From Candidatus Lokiarchaeota archaeon (GTDB taxonomy: Archaea; Asgardarchaeota; Thorarchaeia; Thorarchaeales; Thorarchaeaceae), in assembly GCA_014730275.1 (NCBI GenBank), contig WJIL01000016.1:1-64000 (forward strand): a stretch of 64,000 nt of DNA, read 5' to 3'. Of this stretch, positions 1-25,522 are shown one piece after another; the stretch's first letter is position 1, and each line of letters opens with the position of its first letter. Both the position numbers and the translations under genes were made by a program. The notes beneath the pieces are model-generated. The model did not search any database and was not told where the DNA came from. It saw only the letters and a program-made list of their open reading frames with translations.

Positions 1-420
1 GTCAAGAGAAGGGTCGCCCATGACCCCGTTCCTGACGTAGTCCCACTCCAAGCGCTCTAAATCCTTTGCTAGCAGCTGTCCGTTGAAGCGATTTGGAACC
101 GGTATCCAGTGCTTGATGTGATACCTTGCCATGTTCTCGGCCAGGTAACAGTGACCGTAACACCCCCGGCCTCCATAGACCGCTGTCAACGGACATCCAC
201 GTACGCTATCAAGAAGCGGTCCAATCTTAGTAATGTTTCGGCGGCCATGCTCCTTGTCCTTTGGCGTCCGATGCGTCTTGTTGTTACCGAATAGCCTGAT
301 GTCCTTGCGTACAAACGTGCTCCAGGGCTTCTTCTGCTTGGGCTTGACTTGAGTGTCTGGATACCAGAGGGTATGCTGTTCATACCCGCAGGTTACAGGA
401 GAGTGGCTTGCCGTGGACAT
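1..420 (-). CDS. Partial phage GP88-like cysteine-motif protein (runs off left edge)
   Basis: An open frame of 140 codons runs from an ATG at 418-420 leftwards off the window without a stop, so only the N-terminal part is seen. Around residues 75-90 it carries a Cys, ten residues, then the motif GCYGHCYLAEN. The C-x3-CY core resembles the cysteine motif of the phage GP88 family and of small viral radical-SAM-like proteins, but the first spacing is longer than usual. The ending VMGDPSLD also suits that family. A TATA-like box lies 29 nt before the ATG, so the gene is probably leaderless and diverges from the 509 gene. Function is unknown; the family call is weak. Confidence 0.55.
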   Translation of the reverse strand, partial: MSTASHSPVTCGYEQHTLWYPDTQVKPKQKKPWSTFVRKDIRLFGNNKTHRTPKDKEHGRRNITKIGPLLDSVRGCPLTAVYGGRGCYGHCYLAENMARYHIKHWIPVPNRFNGQLLAKDLERLEWDYVRNGVMGDPSLD

Positions 421-421
421 G

Positions 422-434
422 CTAGACAGTCTAG
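422..434. promoter_or_regulatory. Perfect 13-bp palindrome next to the leftward start codon
   Basis: CTAGAC-A-GTCTAG is a perfect inverted repeat with a single central base. It lies in the first 14 bases upstream of the leftward ATG at 420, between its TATA box and its start. This placement suits a repressor site. Operator function is inferred. Confidence 0.45.
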
Positions 435-442
435 AGATTGCC

Positions 443-449
443 TAATATA
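443..449 (-). promoter_or_regulatory. TATA box of leftward gene
   Basis: Read on the minus strand this is TATATTA. It begins 29 nt before the ATG at 420, the normal distance for a leaderless archaeal transcript. It is half of a divergent promoter shared with the 509 gene. Confidence 0.5.
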
Positions 450-459
450 CTCCGCGTTT

Positions 460-471
460 ATTCCGCGGAAT
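460..471. promoter_or_regulatory. Perfect 12-bp palindrome between divergent promoters
   Basis: ATTCCGCGGAAT is a perfect palindrome located between the two divergent TATA boxes and 9 nt before the rightward one. A degenerate copy (ATTCGGCTGAAT, 2133-2144) sits at nearly the same distance before the PCNA promoter. A shared operator is the likely reading. Confidence 0.5.
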
Positions 472-475
472 ATAA

Positions 476-493
476 CGAGCTTAAATATCGACC
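476..493 (+). promoter_or_regulatory. Promoter of the left small-gene cassette (copy 1)
   Basis: The 18-base string cgagcttaaatatcgacc contains the TATA-like TTAAATAT at 481-488, which begins exactly 28 nt before the ATG at 509. The identical string occurs at 2150-2167 before the PCNA gene with identical spacing. No Shine-Dalgarno sequence precedes the ATG, so transcripts are probably leaderless. Confidence 0.65.
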
Positions 494-508
494 ACAAGAC
501 GGAAGTAC

Positions 509-853
509 ATGACTGATGGAAATGACGACACGATACGTGCGCTTGAGCGTGGGAGGTCCGTCCCGGCTGCACTTGACGGATACTACAGGGCCATCAGCAG
601 AGTTCCGGTACGGAATAAGCAAGTCAAAGAGGCCTTCGACTACCTGCAGGAACAGTGTGTTCTCGAAGTGCCTGTTCAGGCCCAGCTTGTACGGATGAAC
701 GCTGAGGTCTTGGAGGTCTTTGCTTCAAAGCTTGATGTAGAGCCCAAGGCGATTAGACAGCTTGCTGAGATACTCCGGAACAAGCTGGATGAAGGAGGCC
801 TTGAACACGGGGATTTCCTCGTGGTTGTGTTCGATGATTTGGAGGACTGGTAG
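509..853 (+). CDS. Hypothetical protein, first gene of accessory cassette
   Basis: This is a 114-residue protein that I do not recognise. It is predicted mostly helical, with no membrane segment and no cysteine motif, and has an acidic end (VVVFDDLEDW). The start is set by the leaderless promoter 28 nt upstream. Its first residues, MTDGN, nearly match those of the PCNA gene at 2183 (MTDGS), because promoter and start appear to be duplicated. The next gene starts one base after its stop, so it heads an operon of small genes running to 2074. The local sequence is visibly more GC-rich than the chromosomal genes further right. Confidence 0.75.
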   Translation: MTDGNDDTIRALERGRSVPAALDGYYRAISRVPVRNKQVKEAFDYLQEQCVLEVPVQAQLVRMNAEVLEVFASKLDVEPKAIRQLAEILRNKLDEGGLEHGDFLVVVFDDLEDW

Positions 854-854
854 G

Positions 855-1184
855 ATGGCTTCGAAGACAAAGACAGCTGCCCAAGACCTTTCCAGAATCG
901 AGCGATTGATCCTCAGAGCATACACGACCATGGTACGGAAGTACACAGACCTTCAGTACCTAGAGCCACACAAGATCAGTTTCGAGTCAGAACGGGGAGT
1001 GACGTATCTCTGGTTCAGGTTTGCCCCGAGCATAAATACATCCGAAGTACTGAACTGTTATGGTCTGGCTGACTACATTCTGAACGGTATCGAGCAGGTA
1101 GTTGCTGATACAGACTGTCCTCGGGTGGAGCTACGGGTGACCGTTGATGGTTACTATGGTGAGCTGTTCGCAAGGAGCTCCTAG
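855..1184 (+). CDS. Hypothetical protein of accessory cassette
   Basis: This is a 109-residue protein starting at the ATG one base after the preceding stop; an in-frame extension back to 762 would only overlap the previous gene. It has a basic, helical N-terminus (about residues 1-35) and then alternating hydrophobic stretches suggesting a beta-alpha fold (for example VTYLWFRFAPS and PRVELRVTVDGYYGELF). I see no catalytic motif. The tight coupling to the 509 gene suggests co-translation. Function unknown. Confidence 0.7.
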   Translation: MASKTKTAAQDLSRIERLILRAYTTMVRKYTDLQYLEPHKISFESERGVTYLWFRFAPSINTSEVLNCYGLADYILNGIEQVVADTDCPRVELRVTVDGYYGELFARSS

Positions 1185-1196
1185 GAGAGGGTGAGC

Positions 1197-1412
1197 ATGG
1201 CACACGCAGAACCGGCGTATACGCCCAAGTACATCGAAGATGATGGAACCTGCCCGCACTGGGAACGCGACGACCAGTTCATGATAGATTTTCCAGATGT
1301 GACCGACCAGTATCTTGCAGACATAGAAACCGATGGAAAGATTTGTGCTCACTGCCTGTGGTATGCGGCGTATATGACGGGAGAGCCCATATGTCTATAT
1401 TTGAATAATTGA
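1197..1412 (+). CDS. Small Cys-containing hypothetical protein of accessory cassette
   Basis: This is a 71-residue protein. ATG 1197 is chosen over GTG 1191 because AGGAGAGG (1183-1190) then lies 6 nt before the start. It has one Cys-Pro-His pattern near residue 19 and a CxxC (KICAHC) near residue 50, which together could bind a metal, though this is not a clear zinc ribbon. It is acidic and small. It lies in the same operon-like run as its neighbours. Function unknown. Confidence 0.6.
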   Translation: MAHAEPAYTPKYIEDDGTCPHWERDDQFMIDFPDVTDQYLADIETDGKICAHCLWYAAYMTGEPICLYLNN

Positions 1413-1422
1413 GGATAGACTC

Positions 1423-1623
1423 ATGACAGCTCTTGTGGTTTACAAAGACCCACTCAAAGCATTCTGCTTGGAGCATAGGATTTTTCCAGGGATTCACGAT
1501 GTTGATATCCGATTGGACGAATTCAACGAATTCTTGGAGAAACAAGTAGAGAAGAACCTCGATCCTCTCAATCAACAGCAATTTGATAGTCTTCTCTACT
1601 TGTGTTTCAAAATCTCTCATTAG
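1423..1623 (+). CDS. Small hypothetical protein of accessory cassette
   Basis: This is a 66-residue protein with no recognisable domain. The start ATG has GAGGA at 1411-1415, 7 nt upstream, directly over the stop of the previous gene, which supports a real translated frame. The sequence is acidic in the middle (about residues 25-45, DIRLDEFNEFLEKQVEKN) and likely helical. It sits between two other small genes of the cassette. Confidence 0.55.
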   Translation: MTALVVYKDPLKAFCLEHRIFPGIHDVDIRLDEFNEFLEKQVEKNLDPLNQQQFDSLLYLCFKISH

Positions 1624-1657
1624 ATACTTTGTTAAGGCACAACGAGGGGATATACCC

Positions 1658-2074
1658 ATGCCACGAGACAAAGAGGACACGGACACCTACACGAGAAGCA
1701 TAACGGTTGATCGTGTGGTGAAGGGTAAGAAGTACTACAAAGCTTCGATACCCCCCGACCCCATCCGTAAACTCCATGGCAAGGATGCCCCTCGGTTTGT
1801 GCCCTTTGTTGGACTGTTGACCAAGGACAATATTCTGTTTTTTCAGGAGATGCCGACCCAGGAGCTGCGCTGTCCCTTCTGTGATACCGAGATTGATCCC
1901 CACCAGATGAACGAGTGTTCTTGTGGTGCAGAGGTATCCCTTACAGAGGCTCCCGATGCTGTGGGTGTTCCCAACTACGAACCGGTCTCAGGGCTTGTGT
2001 ATCCGCTGTTACCTGATGATGCGGTTGATATGATACAAGGTACGGGGCTCGTTACTGTATACTTTTCTCGGTGA
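1658..2074 (+). CDS. Zinc-ribbon hypothetical protein of accessory cassette
   Basis: This is a 138-residue protein. ATG 1658 is chosen because GAGGGGA (1644-1650) lies 7 nt before it; the frame is open further upstream to 1583 but would overlap the previous gene. Four cysteines in the middle, CPFC followed about eleven residues later by CSCG, form a zinc-ribbon-like knuckle pair. The N-terminal half is basic (about residues 13-45, VDRVVKGKKYYKASIP), reminiscent of a small beta-barrel. DNA or RNA binding is possible but unproven. It is the last gene before the PCNA promoter. Confidence 0.65.
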   Translation: MPRDKEDTDTYTRSITVDRVVKGKKYYKASIPPDPIRKLHGKDAPRFVPFVGLLTKDNILFFQEMPTQELRCPFCDTEIDPHQMNECSCGAEVSLTEAPDAVGVPNYEPVSGLVYPLLPDDAVDMIQGTGLVTVYFSR

Positions 2075-2106
2075 GTTCGCTGATTTTCGATTTTGCGAAA
2101 GGTATC

Positions 2107-2120
2107 GGAACCATGGTTCC
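2107..2120. promoter_or_regulatory. Perfect 14-bp palindrome upstream of the cassette PCNA promoter
   Basis: GGAACCATGGTTCC is a perfect palindrome 35 nt before the TATA box at 2155. Its position upstream of the second palindrome (2133-2144) mirrors the two-palindrome layout at 422-471. A regulator-binding site is the likely reading. Confidence 0.45.
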
Positions 2121-2132
2121 ATATATGGCAAT

Positions 2133-2144
2133 ATTCGGCTGAAT
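2133..2144. promoter_or_regulatory. Imperfect palindrome matching the 460-471 site
   Basis: ATTCGGCTGAAT has perfect outer ATTC/GAAT arms and differs from ATTCCGCGGAAT (460-471) at two inner positions. It ends 10 nt before its TATA box, against 9 nt for the other copy. Confidence 0.45.
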
Positions 2145-2149
2145 AATGG

Positions 2150-2167
2150 CGAGCTTAAATATCGACC
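2150..2167 (+). promoter_or_regulatory. Promoter of cassette PCNA gene (copy 2)
   Basis: This 18-base string is identical to the one at 476-493. TTAAATAT (2155-2162) begins 28 nt before the ATG at 2183. The 15-nt stretch between the string and the ATG differs between copies, but its length is the same. Confidence 0.65.
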
Positions 2168-2182
2168 TCGACACTAGAGACC

Positions 2183-2995
2183 ATGACAGATGGAAGCGTT
2201 AACACGGCAGTAGCAACCGAAACCATGCAATCCCCACAGTCTACGGACACAGGATTCTCCGCCCAGGTTGTGGGAAAATACAAGGTGACCAAGTTCAAGC
2301 GGCTTATCTCTTGTATCGCTAACATCCTCCATCACGAGATCTACTTGCAGGTCGACGGGAACGGTATCTCGATACGTCAGCTCGACCTCTCAAAGGCCAT
2401 GCTCGTATACCTGACAATCCCAGCAGATTACTTCTATTCCTTCGAGTATGACCAAGACCTAATGTTTGCCCTTGATGCTGATGCATTCAATAACGCAGTC
2501 GGGAAGGCACGCTCTCGACTTGAACTTGTCCTTGAGACACAGGAAGCAGAAGGCCAACTGATGTGCAGGACCAAAGACGGCATGGTGCTACTGAAGACAT
2601 GGGAAGCTGGTGATATAGCCAAGCTTCCAGAGCTCAGCCCTGACATACACGCCTCGGTTATCGCTGGTAAGTTCAAGCAGATGCTCAAGAAGATGAACGG
2701 AGATTACTTCGAGCTCGCGGTGTCAGAATCAGATTACACCCTCTCCATAACCGATGATACAACCGGAGGGATTGAACATGTGATGGACAGGGGTAGCGGT
2801 ATGTTATCGGTGCGATGTGATGATGAGACGGGGCCAGATGATTATGCCTGTTACTCAGTACGGCATGTTCAAAACATGCTCAAGCTCTGGCCGAACAAGT
2901 CACGGGTCTCGGTTTCGTTTTCCAAGGATAAGCCGCTCATTCTGACATCGAGTTTCGGGGAGCTTGTGCTTGCCCCACGGGTGGTGAGGAGATGA
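2183..2995 (+). CDS. PCNA-like DNA sliding clamp, accessory copy
   Basis: This 270-residue PCNA homologue would form a ring clamp that tethers polymerases and other enzymes to DNA. An N-terminal extension of about 25 residues precedes the first clamp domain. The C-terminal half has the PCNA pattern: an interdomain segment near 120-140, YSVRHVQNMLKLWP, and the ending ELVLAPRVVR. It is clearly related to the second PCNA at 24695: both share DYF, RGSG(M/L)LS, NML(K/R)LWP and LAPRV in the same order. It starts its own leaderless transcript and overlaps the next gene by ATGA. Its position among small unknown genes suggests a virus or plasmid replication gene. Confidence 0.88.
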   Translation: MTDGSVNTAVATETMQSPQSTDTGFSAQVVGKYKVTKFKRLISCIANILHHEIYLQVDGNGISIRQLDLSKAMLVYLTIPADYFYSFEYDQDLMFALDADAFNNAVGKARSRLELVLETQEAEGQLMCRTKDGMVLLKTWEAGDIAKLPELSPDIHASVIAGKFKQMLKKMNGDYFELAVSESDYTLSITDDTTGGIEHVMDRGSGMLSVRCDDETGPDDYACYSVRHVQNMLKLWPNKSRVSVSFSKDKPLILTSSFGELVLAPRVVRR

Positions 2996-3345
2996 AGATG
3001 ATAGAGGAAGTGAAGACCACCGAGAAGCAGAACAGCATCCAGTATAACGGCTTCTGGAAGCCAGCCAACCGCAAACCCAACGGGGAATATGTGCTACTCT
3101 GGGTTTCCGACTGGCTCAAGCAGGATTGGGGGTTCTACTGTTACATCTCACTTGATACGTACAAACAGGACCTCGACGGGATTCATGGCCTCATTGAGGA
3201 GCTCAATTACCGCGGGGTCGATGTGTACGTTGAGATGGTTGACCACTCACCCGGGTTGAAGGGCTTCTACCGCAAGCAATACCGCAGAAGCAAGATTTCA
3301 CACTATCACATCCTCAATCCGCAGACATGGGAGCGTGTGACCTGA
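2992..3345 (+). CDS. Hypothetical protein coupled to cassette PCNA
   Basis: This is a 117-residue protein whose ATG overlaps the PCNA stop (ATGA), so it is almost certainly co-translated with the clamp. It is rich in Trp and Tyr (for example GEYVLLWVSDWLKQDWGFYCY) and ends in a basic stretch (FYRKQYRRSKISHYH). I see no known domain and no PCNA-interacting peptide. A replication or DNA-handling role is only suggested by the coupling. Confidence 0.7.
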   Translation: MKMIEEVKTTEKQNSIQYNGFWKPANRKPNGEYVLLWVSDWLKQDWGFYCYISLDTYKQDLDGIHGLIEELNYRGVDVYVEMVDHSPGLKGFYRKQYRRSKISHYHILNPQTWERVT

Positions 3346-3357
3346 ATGGGGTTAGCG

Positions 3358-3678
3358 ATGGAAGAGCTCAATCTGTGGTTCTCCCATTATGCGGAAGAGC
3401 TCAAGCTTGACCTCTCATCCTCTGCTTCAACCGAATCCCTGAACACAGCAGAGCGTGCGAAGTTGGAAGAAGACCTCTGTTGGATCATGGAACGTGCACC
3501 GGTCCCCAACAGATTGCACATCATCTTCTTCCCTGAGACAGTCAGAATCATCATGGTATTGTATGACCCGGAAGCCTTCGTGTATAAACTTAAGCCGCAG
3601 CATGGGATACTGCTAAAGGCAATCAGGAAAGACCAGAATGGTCTCAAGGTCATCATGCAGACTTCGAGAGCTTGGTAG
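3358..3678 (+). CDS. Hypothetical protein of accessory cassette
   Basis: This is a 106-residue protein. ATG 3358 is preferred over ATG 3346 because a GGGG run (3348-3351) gives it a ribosome site, whereas 3346 directly follows the previous stop. The start is not certain. The second half has a strand-rich pattern (RLHIIFFPETVRIIMVLYD). No known family is recognised. It lies in the PCNA operon. Confidence 0.6.
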   Translation: MEELNLWFSHYAEELKLDLSSSASTESLNTAERAKLEEDLCWIMERAPVPNRLHIIFFPETVRIIMVLYDPEAFVYKLKPQHGILLKAIRKDQNGLKVIMQTSRAW

Positions 3679-3689
3679 GAGGTGAACGC

Positions 3690-3914
3690 ATGACAGGAGA
3701 ATTGACAGACGAACAACTGGATGAACTGAAGCACAACATCAAAGAAGCCTTAGGATTCATCGGCTTCGCGTCAGATGAAATCATCGCAATCGGAAAAACG
3801 TCGGGAATCAGTAATGAGGTAGACGAACTGGTCTCAAAGGCGATGATAAATGTAGAACATATCATTGATTATCTGAGGAGAATCAAGATGCTGAGCTTCC
3901 CCACAGAACCATAA
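3690..3914 (+). CDS. Small helical hypothetical protein, last gene of cassette
   Basis: This is a 74-residue, probably all-helical acidic protein. The start is fixed by a strong Shine-Dalgarno sequence, AGGAGGTGA (3677-3685), that overlaps the stop of the previous gene; an in-frame TTG at 3672 is less likely. No domain is recognised. It ends about 100 bases from the convergent LRR gene, so it closes the rightward operon. Confidence 0.6.
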   Translation: MTGELTDEQLDELKHNIKEALGFIGFASDEIIAIGKTSGISNEVDELVSKAMINVEHIIDYLRRIKMLSFPTEP

Positions 3915-4013: not shown

Positions 4014-5579
4014 TCACGAATGATGAGTGGGATACGAATTCAGTTCATTCTTGTGTGCCCTTTTCTTGACCAAAGTCCATATATATTGCTTCATTGAATC
4101 CGATATCTTGGTCGACGGATACACTGCGCTCCCCTTCCCAGTTGTGTGCACTACAAGTCCAGTCTCCTCAAATGAACTTTCAACCTGTTCAAATTCCTTA
4201 TCTGTACACATTAGACCGATTTTCATAGCCATCAGTATCTTGTATCCATAAGCTGTTAGCCACAATGGTTTGAGATTGGCAGTATCTTCTACTCTGATAA
4301 CGACTTGTTCTATTTCTTTCAACCGGAGTTCAAGAATGTCCGATACTCTATTGCTAAGAGGTTCGTATGACGATGCCGCAATGTTATCTATATCGACCCC
4401 TATAGTTGTACCCTGTTCATCTAACTGATCACACAAAGTCTTGACCAGCCTATCCTGCATAATGGATTTATTCGGTTCTTCAATAATGGACACAAGTTGT
4501 GAATCTGTAATATCTAATAGTCCTAGTTTCTTCAGGCCAATGGTTCTGACCAAGCACCTAGTTAGATGCTTACATTTCCAAGAATCAGTTTCGTATCTCC
4601 GGATGATATGTGCTAATGACCTTAATACATCCAGATTTCGGATTTCAACTGGTACGTCATATTCTCGTATATGATACTTAGTTCTGGTTTGAAGCTCCTC
4701 CAAGGTTTGTTTCTTTAGAAAGGTTATTCCTATTCTTTCGTATCGGTTTCCATTTGTTTCTAAAATTTTCAGGTTTTCGCATAGAGATAAAGGGGTCATA
4801 TCCACTGTTTCCAGATTATTGTCATACAATGATAATTCGAATAGACTAGAGCAATTCTCAAGAGGTTCGAGATTTATGTGCTCAATATTATTACTATGAA
4901 GATATAACTCCCTGAGCAATTGTAGATTCTGAAGGCCCTTCAGACCGATATGCTCAAGATTGTTTCTATCAAGACGGACATATCTAAGCTGACTGCAATT
5001 CCTCAGCAAACTCAGATTAACCTCATGTAGGTCGTTCTCACTCAAATCAAGCCTTTCGAGGTTTTTGCAATTCCCTAATGGATTGAGATCTATGGCTGAA
5101 AGTTGATTATTATTCAGTAACAGAATCTCCAGTTTTGTGCAATTTGCTAGTGGACCCAAATCCATGGATTTGATTTGGTTGTAATGTAGCGCTAATAGCT
5201 TTAGGTGACTGCAATTAGCTAATGGACTAACGTCAAGATACTTGAGATTGTTCGAACCTATCACTACTTTTCGGAGCTTAGTACAGTTGCCAAGAACTTC
5301 CAGGTCTACCGATTCAATCAGATTAGAACCAAGGTTTAGTACTTCAAGTTGAGGGGAATTTCGTAGGAAATTTAGGGCTATTTCTTTCAGCAAATTTGAA
5401 TCTAATCTGAGGACTCTTAGATTATCAAGACTACCAGTATTCTCTGTTTCAACCCAATCAATACCTTCGTCGGAGGAGAGAGGACCCCTAAGGTTGATTT
5501 CTTTAGTATCATTGCTTAGGGTCAGCTCTCCAATGTTTCCATTCCTACCATACCTGATAACAGTCCCAGTCATAGTCAA
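4014..5579 (-). CDS. Leucine-rich-repeat protein with unknown C-terminal region
   Basis: This is a 521-residue soluble protein. Residues about 50-285 hold roughly ten repeats of 23 residues built on L-x2-L-x-L-x2-N-x-L-x2-(I/V)-(D/N)-L-x-PL-x-NC, a protein-binding solenoid. The last 220 residues are helical and charged and match nothing I know; a winged-helix-like end near 450-505 is possible. There is no signal peptide or membrane segment, so it is probably cytosolic. The gene is clearly more AT-rich than the cassette to its left. A smaller protein with the same repeat type lies at 11497-11811. Its start lies only about 75 bases from a broken ligase gene. Confidence 0.85.
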   Translation of the reverse strand: MTMTGTVIRYGRNGNIGELTLSNDTKEINLRGPLSSDEGIDWVETENTGSLDNLRVLRLDSNLLKEIALNFLRNSPQLEVLNLGSNLIESVDLEVLGNCTKLRKVVIGSNNLKYLDVSPLANCSHLKLLALHYNQIKSMDLGPLANCTKLEILLLNNNQLSAIDLNPLGNCKNLERLDLSENDLHEVNLSLLRNCSQLRYVRLDRNNLEHIGLKGLQNLQLLRELYLHSNNIEHINLEPLENCSSLFELSLYDNNLETVDMTPLSLCENLKILETNGNRYERIGITFLKKQTLEELQTRTKYHIREYDVPVEIRNLDVLRSLAHIIRRYETDSWKCKHLTRCLVRTIGLKKLGLLDITDSQLVSIIEEPNKSIMQDRLVKTLCDQLDEQGTTIGVDIDNIAASSYEPLSNRVSDILELRLKEIEQVVIRVEDTANLKPLWLTAYGYKILMAMKIGLMCTDKEFEQVESSFEETGLVVHTTGKGSAVYPSTKISDSMKQYIWTLVKKRAHKNELNSYPTHHS

Positions 5580-5653: not shown

Positions 5654-5994
5654 CCGACAGGAAGAAAGCAATGATCAATGTGAGTGGATTAAAGGCATAT
5701 CCGCGTGAAATCGAAGACTATCTCTATGAACATCCTAAGGTGGCTATGGCTGCAGCAATAGGTGTTCCACGCGAGGATGACCCAAGCAATGAGTTTGTCA
5801 AAGCGTTCATTGTGCCGAAAGATGGTGTCGAGGCGAGTCCCGAGGAATTCATTGAATGGGCCCGAGATAAGATGGCGGGGTACAAGCGACCACAAGAAGT
5901 TGACCTCGTTGACGAGTTACCGATGACCAATGTCGGCAAGGTGCTGCGAAGAGTATTGAGAGAGCAAGAACTGAAGAAGCGGGGCATGGCCTAA
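5654..5994 (+). pseudogene. C-terminal fragment of an AMP-forming acyl-CoA ligase
   Basis: From about 5654 the frame reads DRKKAMINVSGLKAYPREIE and continues to a normal stop, matching the complete C-terminal subdomain (AMP-binding_C) of fatty-acid or acetyl-CoA ligases, with the catalytic Lys in NVGKVLRR. The roughly 400-residue N-terminal ATP-binding part is missing. Upstream in-frame sequence (5494-5653) runs antisense through the LRR gene and has no ligase similarity, so the apparent 166-residue frame is a fusion of unrelated DNA. This is a broken gene at a recombination or insertion junction. Expression is unlikely. Confidence 0.8.
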
Positions 5995-6143
5995 GAACTC
6001 CATCCTCAGCTAACGTACTGCCGAAAGACTGGTTGGCTTAATCGCTAAACAAACCAGAGCCAAAACGTTCAATTCGACAAGTACTTTCAAAAATATCATA
6101 TATGCCATGCAAAAGATAAAGAGAGGAATTTGCAAGAACATGA

Positions 6144-7469
6144 ATGCTCCGGGAGATTGTGTTGTTTAAAGAAAAAAGGCCGCTGTATCTGGCCATTTTT
6201 GCCGCGGTAGTATTGTGGCTGATGGATTCAGTGATAGATTTCTATTTTGTCTACGATAAACAGTTCACAGATCTCCTGTTTCTAAGTCCTCCTCCCCATG
6301 AGGTATGGATGCGACTGGTTGCGGCAATGATCCTCGTAGGCTCAGGCATCTTTACTTCCTCTCTCATAGATAAGTTGGAATCTGTTCAAGAAGAAGCCGA
6401 TTGGGAGCGCCATTTTTTACTCAATGTCATCGATTCGCTTAAACATCCCTTCTATGTTGTAGATCCTTCTACCCACGAGGTACTGAAAGCTAACGAAGCT
6501 GCTCTCAAATCACTTCCGTTGAATGGTCAGAAGTGCTATGAAGTGACTCATGGTCAATCCGAACCTTGTCAAGCTCCCTATCATGATTGTCCAGTTGAAA
6601 CCGCGGTAAATACAAGGGACTCCTACACAACTCATCATCTCCACTTTGATAAGGAAGGACAAACTAGATTCATTGAAGTTCGAGCAAATCCAATCGAAGA
6701 CTTGGATGGTAACGTTTCTGCAGTAGCAGTAAATATGGTAGACATAACTGACGTAAACCGAGTGAAACAAGCATTAGAGATATCTTCTGACTACTCCATG
6801 TTCTATATGGATCTGCTAACACACGACTTCAGGAATAAATTGCAGAGCTGCTTACTACTTACTGAAATGATGGAAGAGAACACAGATAATTCCCAGATAA
6901 CGAAGGCATGCGAAGGAACACTAGACCAGCTGAAAGAAATGAGTGATATGATTTCAAAACTCAGTCTAACTAAATCTCTTGGGCAAAGCCCCATCAGGGA
7001 AACATCCCTGACCGGTGCCATAGATTGGTCGATAGAACAAATTCAACGCGAGTTCGATGATGTCAGAATTATTTCCGACTTTGAAGATAGAGAAGTGACA
7101 ATTCTGGCAGATGAGCACTTGAAGTATCTTATCTATAACCTCATGGAAAACGCTGCAGAACACAATCCGAAACCAATCAAACGCATCTGGATCACTCTGA
7201 AGAGGAAAGAAAGTGGATGGGAACTGAGTATTGCAGATGATGGGCCTGGCATAGATGATACGAGGAAGGCTGAGCTGCTGAATCCAGAACGTCGGTTTGG
7301 CGGAGTTGGTGTACATCAGGCACAACATATCGCGAAGAAATACGGGGCTTCGATTGAAATTTGCAATCGAGTCAGGGGTCTCCCCGGTAAAGGTTCCGAG
7401 TTCAAGGTCTTTTTTCCATTCGAACCTGAAACGAAAAAACCCCCGGCGAATATCTTTCTTAGTCTTTGA
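6144..7469 (+). CDS. Membrane PAS-domain sensor histidine kinase
   Basis: This is a 441-residue sensor kinase. Two membrane helices (about 14-36 and 57-76) are followed by a PAS domain (about 95-210) containing three cysteines at 131, 142 and 149 that could hold a metal or cofactor. The phospho-acceptor region has His227 in LLTHDFRNKLQ. The ATPase domain shows the N box (NLMENAAEH, about 332-340), DDGPGI (365-370) and GVGV (387-390). It would autophosphorylate in response to a signal sensed at or below the membrane. No response regulator is next to it, so it is an orphan kinase, as is common in archaea. Confidence 0.88.
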   Translation: MLREIVLFKEKRPLYLAIFAAVVLWLMDSVIDFYFVYDKQFTDLLFLSPPPHEVWMRLVAAMILVGSGIFTSSLIDKLESVQEEADWERHFLLNVIDSLKHPFYVVDPSTHEVLKANEAALKSLPLNGQKCYEVTHGQSEPCQAPYHDCPVETAVNTRDSYTTHHLHFDKEGQTRFIEVRANPIEDLDGNVSAVAVNMVDITDVNRVKQALEISSDYSMFYMDLLTHDFRNKLQSCLLLTEMMEENTDNSQITKACEGTLDQLKEMSDMISKLSLTKSLGQSPIRETSLTGAIDWSIEQIQREFDDVRIISDFEDREVTILADEHLKYLIYNLMENAAEHNPKPIKRIWITLKRKESGWELSIADDGPGIDDTRKAELLNPERRFGGVGVHQAQHIAKKYGASIEICNRVRGLPGKGSEFKVFFPFEPETKKPPANIFLSL

Positions 7470-24194: not shown

Positions 24195-24291
24195 CACCGA
24201 TTACACAGAATCCTCCCTGTTAGTTAGGCGCGGGTGAAATCAAAAACCGATGCCTTTGTATTGCCAAATGAGTACCGTAAGGTGCATTACC

Positions 24292-24618
24292 ATGACAAAA
24301 GTAGATTACGAGCTTTTCGTAGCAGATCCTGGTGACGGGTATGGAGTTAAGTTTGCGCTTCGTACTGAATATAACAAGCAGCTTGTCAAATCAATCAAGG
24401 CGATGGACTGGGAGTTATCCCATCGAGGATGGGACAACTATGAGAATGTTTGGCGCTTTGATATCAACGATTATACTGTTGATGAGCTTCGTCGACTGGG
24501 TGTGGATGTCCCAGATTTAGAAATATGCAAACAAGCGGCTGAGGCTGTTTCAAGCGAAGATAGTGAATTACCCGATGATCCGTTTCCAGTAAAGGGCAAG
24601 CTTGAAGTTTTCGCATGA
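24292..24618 (+). CDS. Small protein with HARP-like DNA-binding segment, next to PCNA
   Basis: This 108-residue protein starts at ATG 24292, chosen because AAGGTG lies 7 nt upstream; two upstream in-frame ATGs are possible. Residues about 20-65, FALRTEYNKQLVKSIKAMDW followed by a YENVWRFDINDY segment, follow the pattern of the HARP domain found in SMARCAL1-type fork-remodelling proteins, here without a helicase. The extreme C-terminus KGKLEVFA resembles a degenerate PCNA-interacting peptide. A PCNA gene begins 76 bases downstream. Both family suggestions are weak and need a profile search. Confidence 0.6.
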   Translation: MTKVDYELFVADPGDGYGVKFALRTEYNKQLVKSIKAMDWELSHRGWDNYENVWRFDINDYTVDELRRLGVDVPDLEICKQAAEAVSSEDSELPDDPFPVKGKLEVFA

Positions 24619-24640
24619 CGAATTGCTGAATACACCCTTT

Positions 24641-24653
24641 GGGCTATAGGCCC
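24641..24653 (+). terminator. Possible terminator hairpin
   Basis: GGGC-TATAG-GCCC forms a short stem shortly after the stop of the HARP-like gene, followed by an AT-rich stretch. It may separate that transcript from PCNA. The stem is only 4 bp, so support is modest. Confidence 0.3.
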
Positions 24654-24655
24654 TT

Positions 24656-24682
24656 AATTACTGTCATACCAAGAGAGTAATT
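24656..24682. promoter_or_regulatory. Inverted repeat before second PCNA gene
   Basis: AATTACT and AGTAATT are perfect 7-bp arms separated by 13 bases, ending 12 bases before the PCNA GTG start and overlapping the likely promoter. It could be an operator or a chance AT-rich repeat. Confidence 0.35.
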
Positions 24683-24694
24683 GAGGTCTTTAGC

Positions 24695-25522
24695 GTGAAG
24701 GTTCAATCTTCGAAAACTGCTGAAAGCAGAGTCTTCGTCGCCGGGCTCGCCGGACGATATAAAGTGGATTTGATAGACCGAATACTTTCAGCTTTGAACG
24801 AGATTCTAAGTCATGAGATTTGTATGAAAGTAACTTCTGCTGGTCTATCAATAAAACAACTCAATTTAGCCAAGACAATCCTCGTTGATATCGAAATCCC
24901 ACATGACTTCTTCTACAAATATGAAATCACAGAATCTAGCGGCCTTTTTGCAATTGATGCTCAACGGATTACTGAGCTGGTGAACCAAGCCAATTCTAGA
25001 CTGACATTATCTCTACAAAAAACCAAATCCGAACGCGAATTAGTATGTGAGTGGAAAGATGGTAGCGCTACTCTGCCTGTTTTCGAGGCAGCTGATGAAG
25101 CATCTTCCCCTAGCCTTGATCACGCAATTGAAGCCTCGCTAATTGCAAAGGTGCTGAAGACATCACTGAAGATGATTGATTCTGACTATTTTCAGATACG
25201 GGCTTTCCCTCCTTTCTCAGAGCTTGTTCTTGTCCAAGATGATGATTCGGCTACAAAAGAGAAACATCTTCGGCGAGGTAGTGGCCTTTTGTCATTAACA
25301 TACGTTGGGGAGGAGAAATCAGAGAATAAAAATTCCCAAGAGTCTGAAGACACAGATGAAATAGGCATTTCGGGAGTTTACTCAACGAAGGCTGTACGGA
25401 ATATGCTACGACTCTGGCCTGCCGAATCAAGAGTAACACTTGAGTTTGCAACAAATCGTCCTCTAGCTCTGAAATTCAGATTTGGAAAGCTGATTCTAGC
25501 ACCTAGAGTGTTGAGAGAATAA
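24695..25522 (+). CDS. PCNA-like DNA sliding clamp, chromosomal copy
   Basis: This 275-residue PCNA homologue starts at GTG 24695, with GAGGT 7 nt upstream. It shows the two-domain clamp pattern and ends GKLILAPRVLRE. It has an acidic insertion of about 20 residues near 205-225 (EKSENKNSQESEDTDE). It aligns along its length with the accessory clamp at 2183, sharing the same order of RGSG, NMLRLWP and LAPRV blocks. It may be the host replication clamp, or one of several. It lies between unrelated Hdr genes. Confidence 0.87.
   Translation: MKVQSSKTAESRVFVAGLAGRYKVDLIDRILSALNEILSHEICMKVTSAGLSIKQLNLAKTILVDIEIPHDFFYKYEITESSGLFAIDAQRITELVNQANSRLTLSLQKTKSERELVCEWKDGSATLPVFEAADEASSPSLDHAIEASLIAKVLKTSLKMIDSDYFQIRAFPPFSELVLVQDDDSATKEKHLRRGSGLLSLTYVGEEKSENKNSQESEDTDEIGISGVYSTKAVRNMLRLWPAESRVTLEFATNRPLALKFRFGKLILAPRVLRE

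Follow-up and report, generated by a model that had tools for sequence, protein, structure and literature searches.

The first 3,914 bp of a 64,000-bp stretch of thorarchaeal DNA (hereafter, the window) are probably a partly decayed copy of a Thorarchaeota integrative mobile element, one that replaced the end of the gene on its left and kept a control and replication module. The element family apparently has no description in the open-access literature, in line with the original prediction of an undescribed element. That prediction took the region for part of an integrated archaeal virus or plasmid. Its first half is borne out by multiple copies, empty sites, rare genes and an integrase-bearing relative; its viral half is not, as no virion gene was found, and whether the element would be a plasmid or a virus we can only infer.

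Layout and composition of the cassette

The window represents the beginning of contig C16 (201,863 bp) in a host genome of 3.64 Mb and 151 contigs. Since it starts where the contig starts, the left side of the element is absent from it. Within positions 1–3914, a minus-strand gene with cysteine motifs is followed by two plus-strand operons with nine tightly spaced genes in all, agreeing with the eight or more small, packed genes noticed originally. The nine plus-strand reading frames are spaced by −4 to 34 bp, except for 108 bp ahead of the PCNA operon. The cassette and its right-hand border comprise the following features:

1–420, minus strand: cysteine-rich, probably radical-SAM-like protein ("GP88-like"), N-terminal 140 codons, open at the contig start; relatives in the phylum and in IMG/VR
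460–493, plus strand: operator-like palindrome ATTCCGCGGAAT, then TATA-like CGAGCTTAAATATCGACC, the predicted operon 1 promoter; same layout in the C62 copy
509–853, plus strand: p114, first gene of operon 1; no family; 26-aa remnant in the C62 copy
855–1184, plus strand: p109, operon 1; 13-aa remnant in the C62 copy
1191–1412, plus strand: p73; present in the C62 and C71 copies; dN/dS 0.08–0.28
1423–1623, plus strand: p66; no family matched
1658–2074, plus strand: p138, probable regulator; dN/dS 0.18–0.24
2109–2167, plus strand: palindrome GGAACCATGGTTCC and CGAGCTTAAATATCGACC, the predicted operon 2 promoter/operator; near-identical 5′ of p117 in the C71 copy
2183–2995, plus strand: divergent PCNA (sliding clamp), first gene of operon 2; among the copies, only in that of the window
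2992–3345, plus strand: p117; in another Asgard family, an element has a distant homolog beside PCNA
3346–3678, plus strand: p110; truncated in the C62 copy
3690–3914, plus strand: p74; also in the C71 copy
4014–5579, minus strand: leucine-rich-repeat (LRR) protein, cargo or hitch-hiker; the C62 and C118 copies have related LRR genes at this end too
5662–5998, plus strand: original 3′ end of the acyl-CoA synthetase gene, displaced to the right border of the insertion, from comparison with a same-genus genome (G001)

As predicted, the cassette is more GC-rich than the DNA around it: its GC content is 0.498, compared with a mean of 0.457 (sd 0.011, maximum 0.484) for 218 windows of equal size elsewhere. 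Third-codon GC ranges from 0.48 to 0.73 in the cassette and from 0.36 to 0.43 in the four sampled genes that follow the LRR gene on its right. PCNA aside, the cassette proteins that were scanned belong to no confident family in Pfam, PHROGs or NCBIfam, just as the small proteins had at first seemed to resemble no known family. Neither Rfam families nor tRNA genes were found within the 64-kb window, and thus there is no tRNA target inside it. The suggested match against host CRISPR spacers came to nothing, as the search of the host genome gave no spacer-like match.

Copies, empty sites and displaced gene ends

Cassette DNA recurs on contigs C62, C71 and C118 and twice on C84 (internally and at its end), at 71–98% identity. 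The copies are mosaic, each retaining a different subset of parts. The C62 copy has lost the middle of p114–p109 and has no PCNA; that on C71 keeps p73, p138, p117 and p74; on C118 the GP88-like gene is fused to p117; and only the GP88-like gene is kept in the internal C84 copy. Pairwise dN/dS between copies, computed for p138, p117 and p73, is 0.08–0.28, about 0.2, and hence the copies diverged as functional elements with their proteins under selection. Such a pattern would be expected if related elements had arrived separately, not if a single insertion had decayed. Beside these copies, where the elements are incomplete, no integrase was recognized, and the only mobility gene was a DDE transposase on C84. 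LRR genes of one family stand at the same end of three copies (window 4014–5579; L011, 7521–9068; L013, 10119–11486), and the family has 27 matches in the host genome.

Three of the copy sites are empty in G001. There, the gene for an acyl-CoA synthetase lies directly before that of a histidine kinase, the gene that begins at window position 6144. The host synthetase gene is found near the end of contig C103, and its product is 91% identical to the G001 protein over the first 472 residues and 75.5% over the last 110. The orphan C-terminal piece at window 5662–5998 is 89% identical to the G001 synthetase. On the simplest reading of these alignments, the old synthetase end would have been displaced by a new one that came with the insertion. 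Identity declines gradually along the C103 synthetase, from about residue 420, and gene conversion could also explain this.

The C71 copy shows a displaced gene end independently of the copy in the window. An insert of about 7.15 kb, absent in G001, lies within the last codons of a conserved gene; the old gene end, HIGFTINILKSSEK, is found at the far border, as opposed to the new end, GFTINVLELPD. A third insertion (C84 and C118) parts two genes that are adjacent in G001. The target gene end is thus seen clearly at both borders in the C71 copy and, for the window copy, whose left border is on another contig, with good agreement at the protein level. The two duplicated ends are unequal: one measures about 24 bp, the other about 330 bp. 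Displacement of the original gene end in this manner is also seen when archaeal integrases drive insertion, and thaumarchaeal elements are documented to integrate into protein-coding genes at 3′-distal positions (PMC6563490).

Just past the synthetase, C103 carries an operator motif and an LRR remnant, as expected of the other side of the element; only 1.5 kb of sequence follows the synthetase before the contig stops, and the left border is missing from the assembly. A different join was also considered, since the end of C84 and the start of the window share a 124-bp identity. It was not relied on, because synteny with G001 puts C103 to the left of C16, and C84 together with C118; on the same grounds, the shared 124 bp are probably a repeat. 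Housekeeping genes to the left, which the original prediction had set against its own case, do occur on C103, the probable left flank, but they lie beyond a lineage-specific insertion.

We propose that a tyrosine integrase probably carried the element into the acyl-CoA synthetase gene, at its 3′ end. The insertion would have brought a substitute gene end, and the original one would have been pushed to the right border at 5662–5998.

Predicted control and replication genes and their relatives

The dedicated promoters that had been predicted found good support: both operon starts are preceded, at a distance of about 15 bp, by the same 18-mer, CGAGCTTAAATATCGACC. Across 3.64 Mb, exact matches to its 17-bp core are confined to these two promoters; allowing one mismatch adds a single site. 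The palindromes 5′ of both promoter cores recur in other copies. In the C62 and C71 copies, the operon 2 promoter is directly 5′ of p117; in the window copy, PCNA stands in between.

The p138 protein is probably a DNA-binding regulator, judging from an N-terminus that looks AbrB-like by eye only and from a CxxC...CxC zinc-ribbon-like stretch; no AbrB-type profile in Pfam or NCBIfam matched it. Homologs of p138 were detected in 6 of 228 genomes of the phylum (three of them weak) and those of p117 in 3 of 228, far from the universal presence in the lineage that would have spoken for ordinary host genes. The predicted structure model of p117, with a pLDDT of 48, is too poor to be of use. One p138 homolog (L035, contig 153 of G027) adjoins genes for uracil-DNA glycosylase, deaminase-like, radical SAM, ASCH and HTH-IrrE protease proteins.

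The minus-strand cysteine-motif gene is real, but its GP88 label did not hold: neither the joined 238-aa protein nor the C118 copy matched the Pfam GP88 profile at E-values up to 1. Of 228 genomes in the phylum, 11 have relatives of the gene, and two IMG/VR contigs carry further ones. The relatives, viral ones included, show a weak, below-cut-off similarity to Radical_SAM (PF04055, E = 0.003–0.16). The CX3CX2C motif is present in the viral relatives (L040 and L041) and stretched in the thorarchaeal ones; the predicted model of the L040 relative is likewise of no use (pLDDT 36). A broken GP88-like gene pair also occurs on contig 266 of G025 (L064, 3876–5725), 5′ of oxoacid oxidoreductase, BCR-type and acyl-CoA synthetase genes, a kind of locus close to the acyl-CoA synthetase locus of the window.

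A relative of the cassette was found in another Asgard family. In an 8-contig genome, G057, a p117 homolog with 40% identity is encoded about 0.8 kb before a PCNA, within an element of roughly 60 kb (about 615–679 kb of contig 6, L098–L102; exact borders not found). The element lies between ilvC and heterodisulfide-reductase-like genes, the flanks being named by eye. It encodes MCM, a clamp-loader-like ATPase, an AAA ATPase, type I restriction genes, a serine recombinase, a VRR-NUC nuclease and a tyrosine integrase. A spore-photoproduct-lyase-like protein is also present, and the PCNA of this element has a C2H2 zinc finger at its end. Given that p117 and PCNA keep company there with MCM, clamp-loader-like genes and a tyrosine integrase, the best reading of the cassette is as an integrative element's module for regulation and replication.

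Accessory PCNAs were found on other contigs as well. A 6.3-kb contig of G027 carries one together with two GP88-like genes. A 12-kb contig of G018 (contig 246, L037) has more than 20 small unknown genes, nearly all co-directional, and a long-branch PCNA; it looks like an extrachromosomal element or a virus. Searches of the accessory contigs against PHROGs returned only methyltransferases and weak unknowns.

The PCNA homolog noted originally is confirmed by a PCNA_N match above the cut-off (PF00705, E = 7e-8) and a near full-length clamp alignment of 2183–2995, which matches 47 solved PCNA/clamp sequences. It is one of three PCNAs in the host genome, the others being a second one in the window (24695–25522) and an ordinary one on contig C70, also found in most relatives. 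The second PCNA is 40% identical to the element PCNA and is its sister in the tree. Together with the accessory PCNAs found in G027, G018 and G011, they form a clade (support 100/98, long branches) apart from host and haloviral PCNAs. The second PCNA occupies the same place in G001, with dN/dS of 0.13. It is preceded by a 122-aa HARP-like protein (a weak HARP match), and this gene pair (24250–25522) is conserved in G001 at 92% and 97% identity and in no other of 59 relatives at such similarity. The patchy distribution suggests that the second PCNA was derived from an element, though transfer may have gone in the reverse direction. The G057 element PCNA falls outside the clade of the window PCNA (p-AU of 0.052 when held as one clade), and therefore elements probably acquired clamps more than once.

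Taken together, the two operons suggest how the element might work. Operon 1 (p114–p138) would supply the probable DNA-binding regulator, most likely p138, and this would control both operons; operon 2 (PCNA-p117-p110-p74) would supply the sliding clamp. The common promoter core and the nearby palindromes suggest that both operons are switched on together as the element leaves its dormant state. The element PCNA might then hold a polymerase on element DNA, and the clamp and p117 would support replication of the excised element.

Other possible origins and known systems

An alternative we regard as improbable, if still deserving attention, is that the cassette is the early region of a provirus, such as a tailed archaeal virus resembling the PCNA-encoding haloarchaeal ones. 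As originally remarked, some archaeal tailed viruses do encode PCNA (PhiCh1, phiH, CGphi46, HHTV-1 and Halorubrum tailed viruses). Two IMG/VR contigs carry GP88-like relatives, with methyltransferase-like and, by eye, PAPS-reductase-like genes around them, and the co-directional small genes of the G018 contig would also suit a virus. However, no capsid, portal or terminase gene was detected at any copy, among the tested G057 element proteins or on the tested accessory contigs, the element being incomplete in the window. No phage protein matched the window PCNA, which the tree places at a long distance from its haloviral counterparts, and p117, p138 and PCNA have no relatives in IMG/VR as far as the search could reach.

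Much less probable is an immobile, lineage-specific island of the chromosome, made up of host genes and duplicated in this genome. Most copies indeed have no adjoining mobility gene, LRR genes of the same family are numerous, and the sister of the element PCNA is a stable chromosomal gene. Yet such an island would hardly account for sites empty within the genus, displaced gene ends and foreign base composition, or for copies that diverged under purifying selection and a p117–PCNA linkage in an integrase-bearing element of another family. Least probable of all is a binning or assembly artefact joining foreign contig pieces: several copies are at contig ends and the window starts with a repeat end, but the C71 copy is inside a 59-kb contig with flanks syntenic to G001, a C84 copy is inside a 106-kb contig, and the right flank of the window is likewise syntenic to G001.

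An integrative mobile element, the reading we prefer, has partial parallels among known systems. Thaumarchaeal cryptic integrated elements (CIE) and other iMGE (Krupovic et al. 2019, PMC6563490) similarly consist mostly of unknown small genes and have recruited replication proteins such as MCM. The Thorarchaeota element differs in phylum and gene content and in having no integrase found at its copies; p138, p117 and the window PCNA clade do not appear in the passages of that paper that were covered. Like the haloarchaeal tailed viruses (PhiCh1, phiH, CGphi46 and HHTV-1), it is mobile, archaeal and equipped with a PCNA of its own, encoded among small genes, but this PCNA belongs to another clade and no virion genes were seen. 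With the Heimdallarchaeum elements HeimM, HeimV and aloposons (PMC8813620) and Asgard viruses (PMC9246712), it shares an Asgard host and mobility, some of them being integrated. Unlike these systems, it has neither a giant Otus/Ephialtes-type gene nor a tRNA site; the word PCNA is absent from both papers.

Asgard archaea are the closest known relatives of eukaryotes, and their mobile elements are barely catalogued. The family identified here has inserted repeatedly, and its copies tend to break assemblies. Tentatively, it may belong to an undescribed Asgard integrative-element family with its own clamp lineage, from which a thorarchaeal genus would have domesticated the second PCNA. As the element clamp is sister to the conserved second PCNA of the host genus, it becomes possible to test directly whether element and host have exchanged replication genes.
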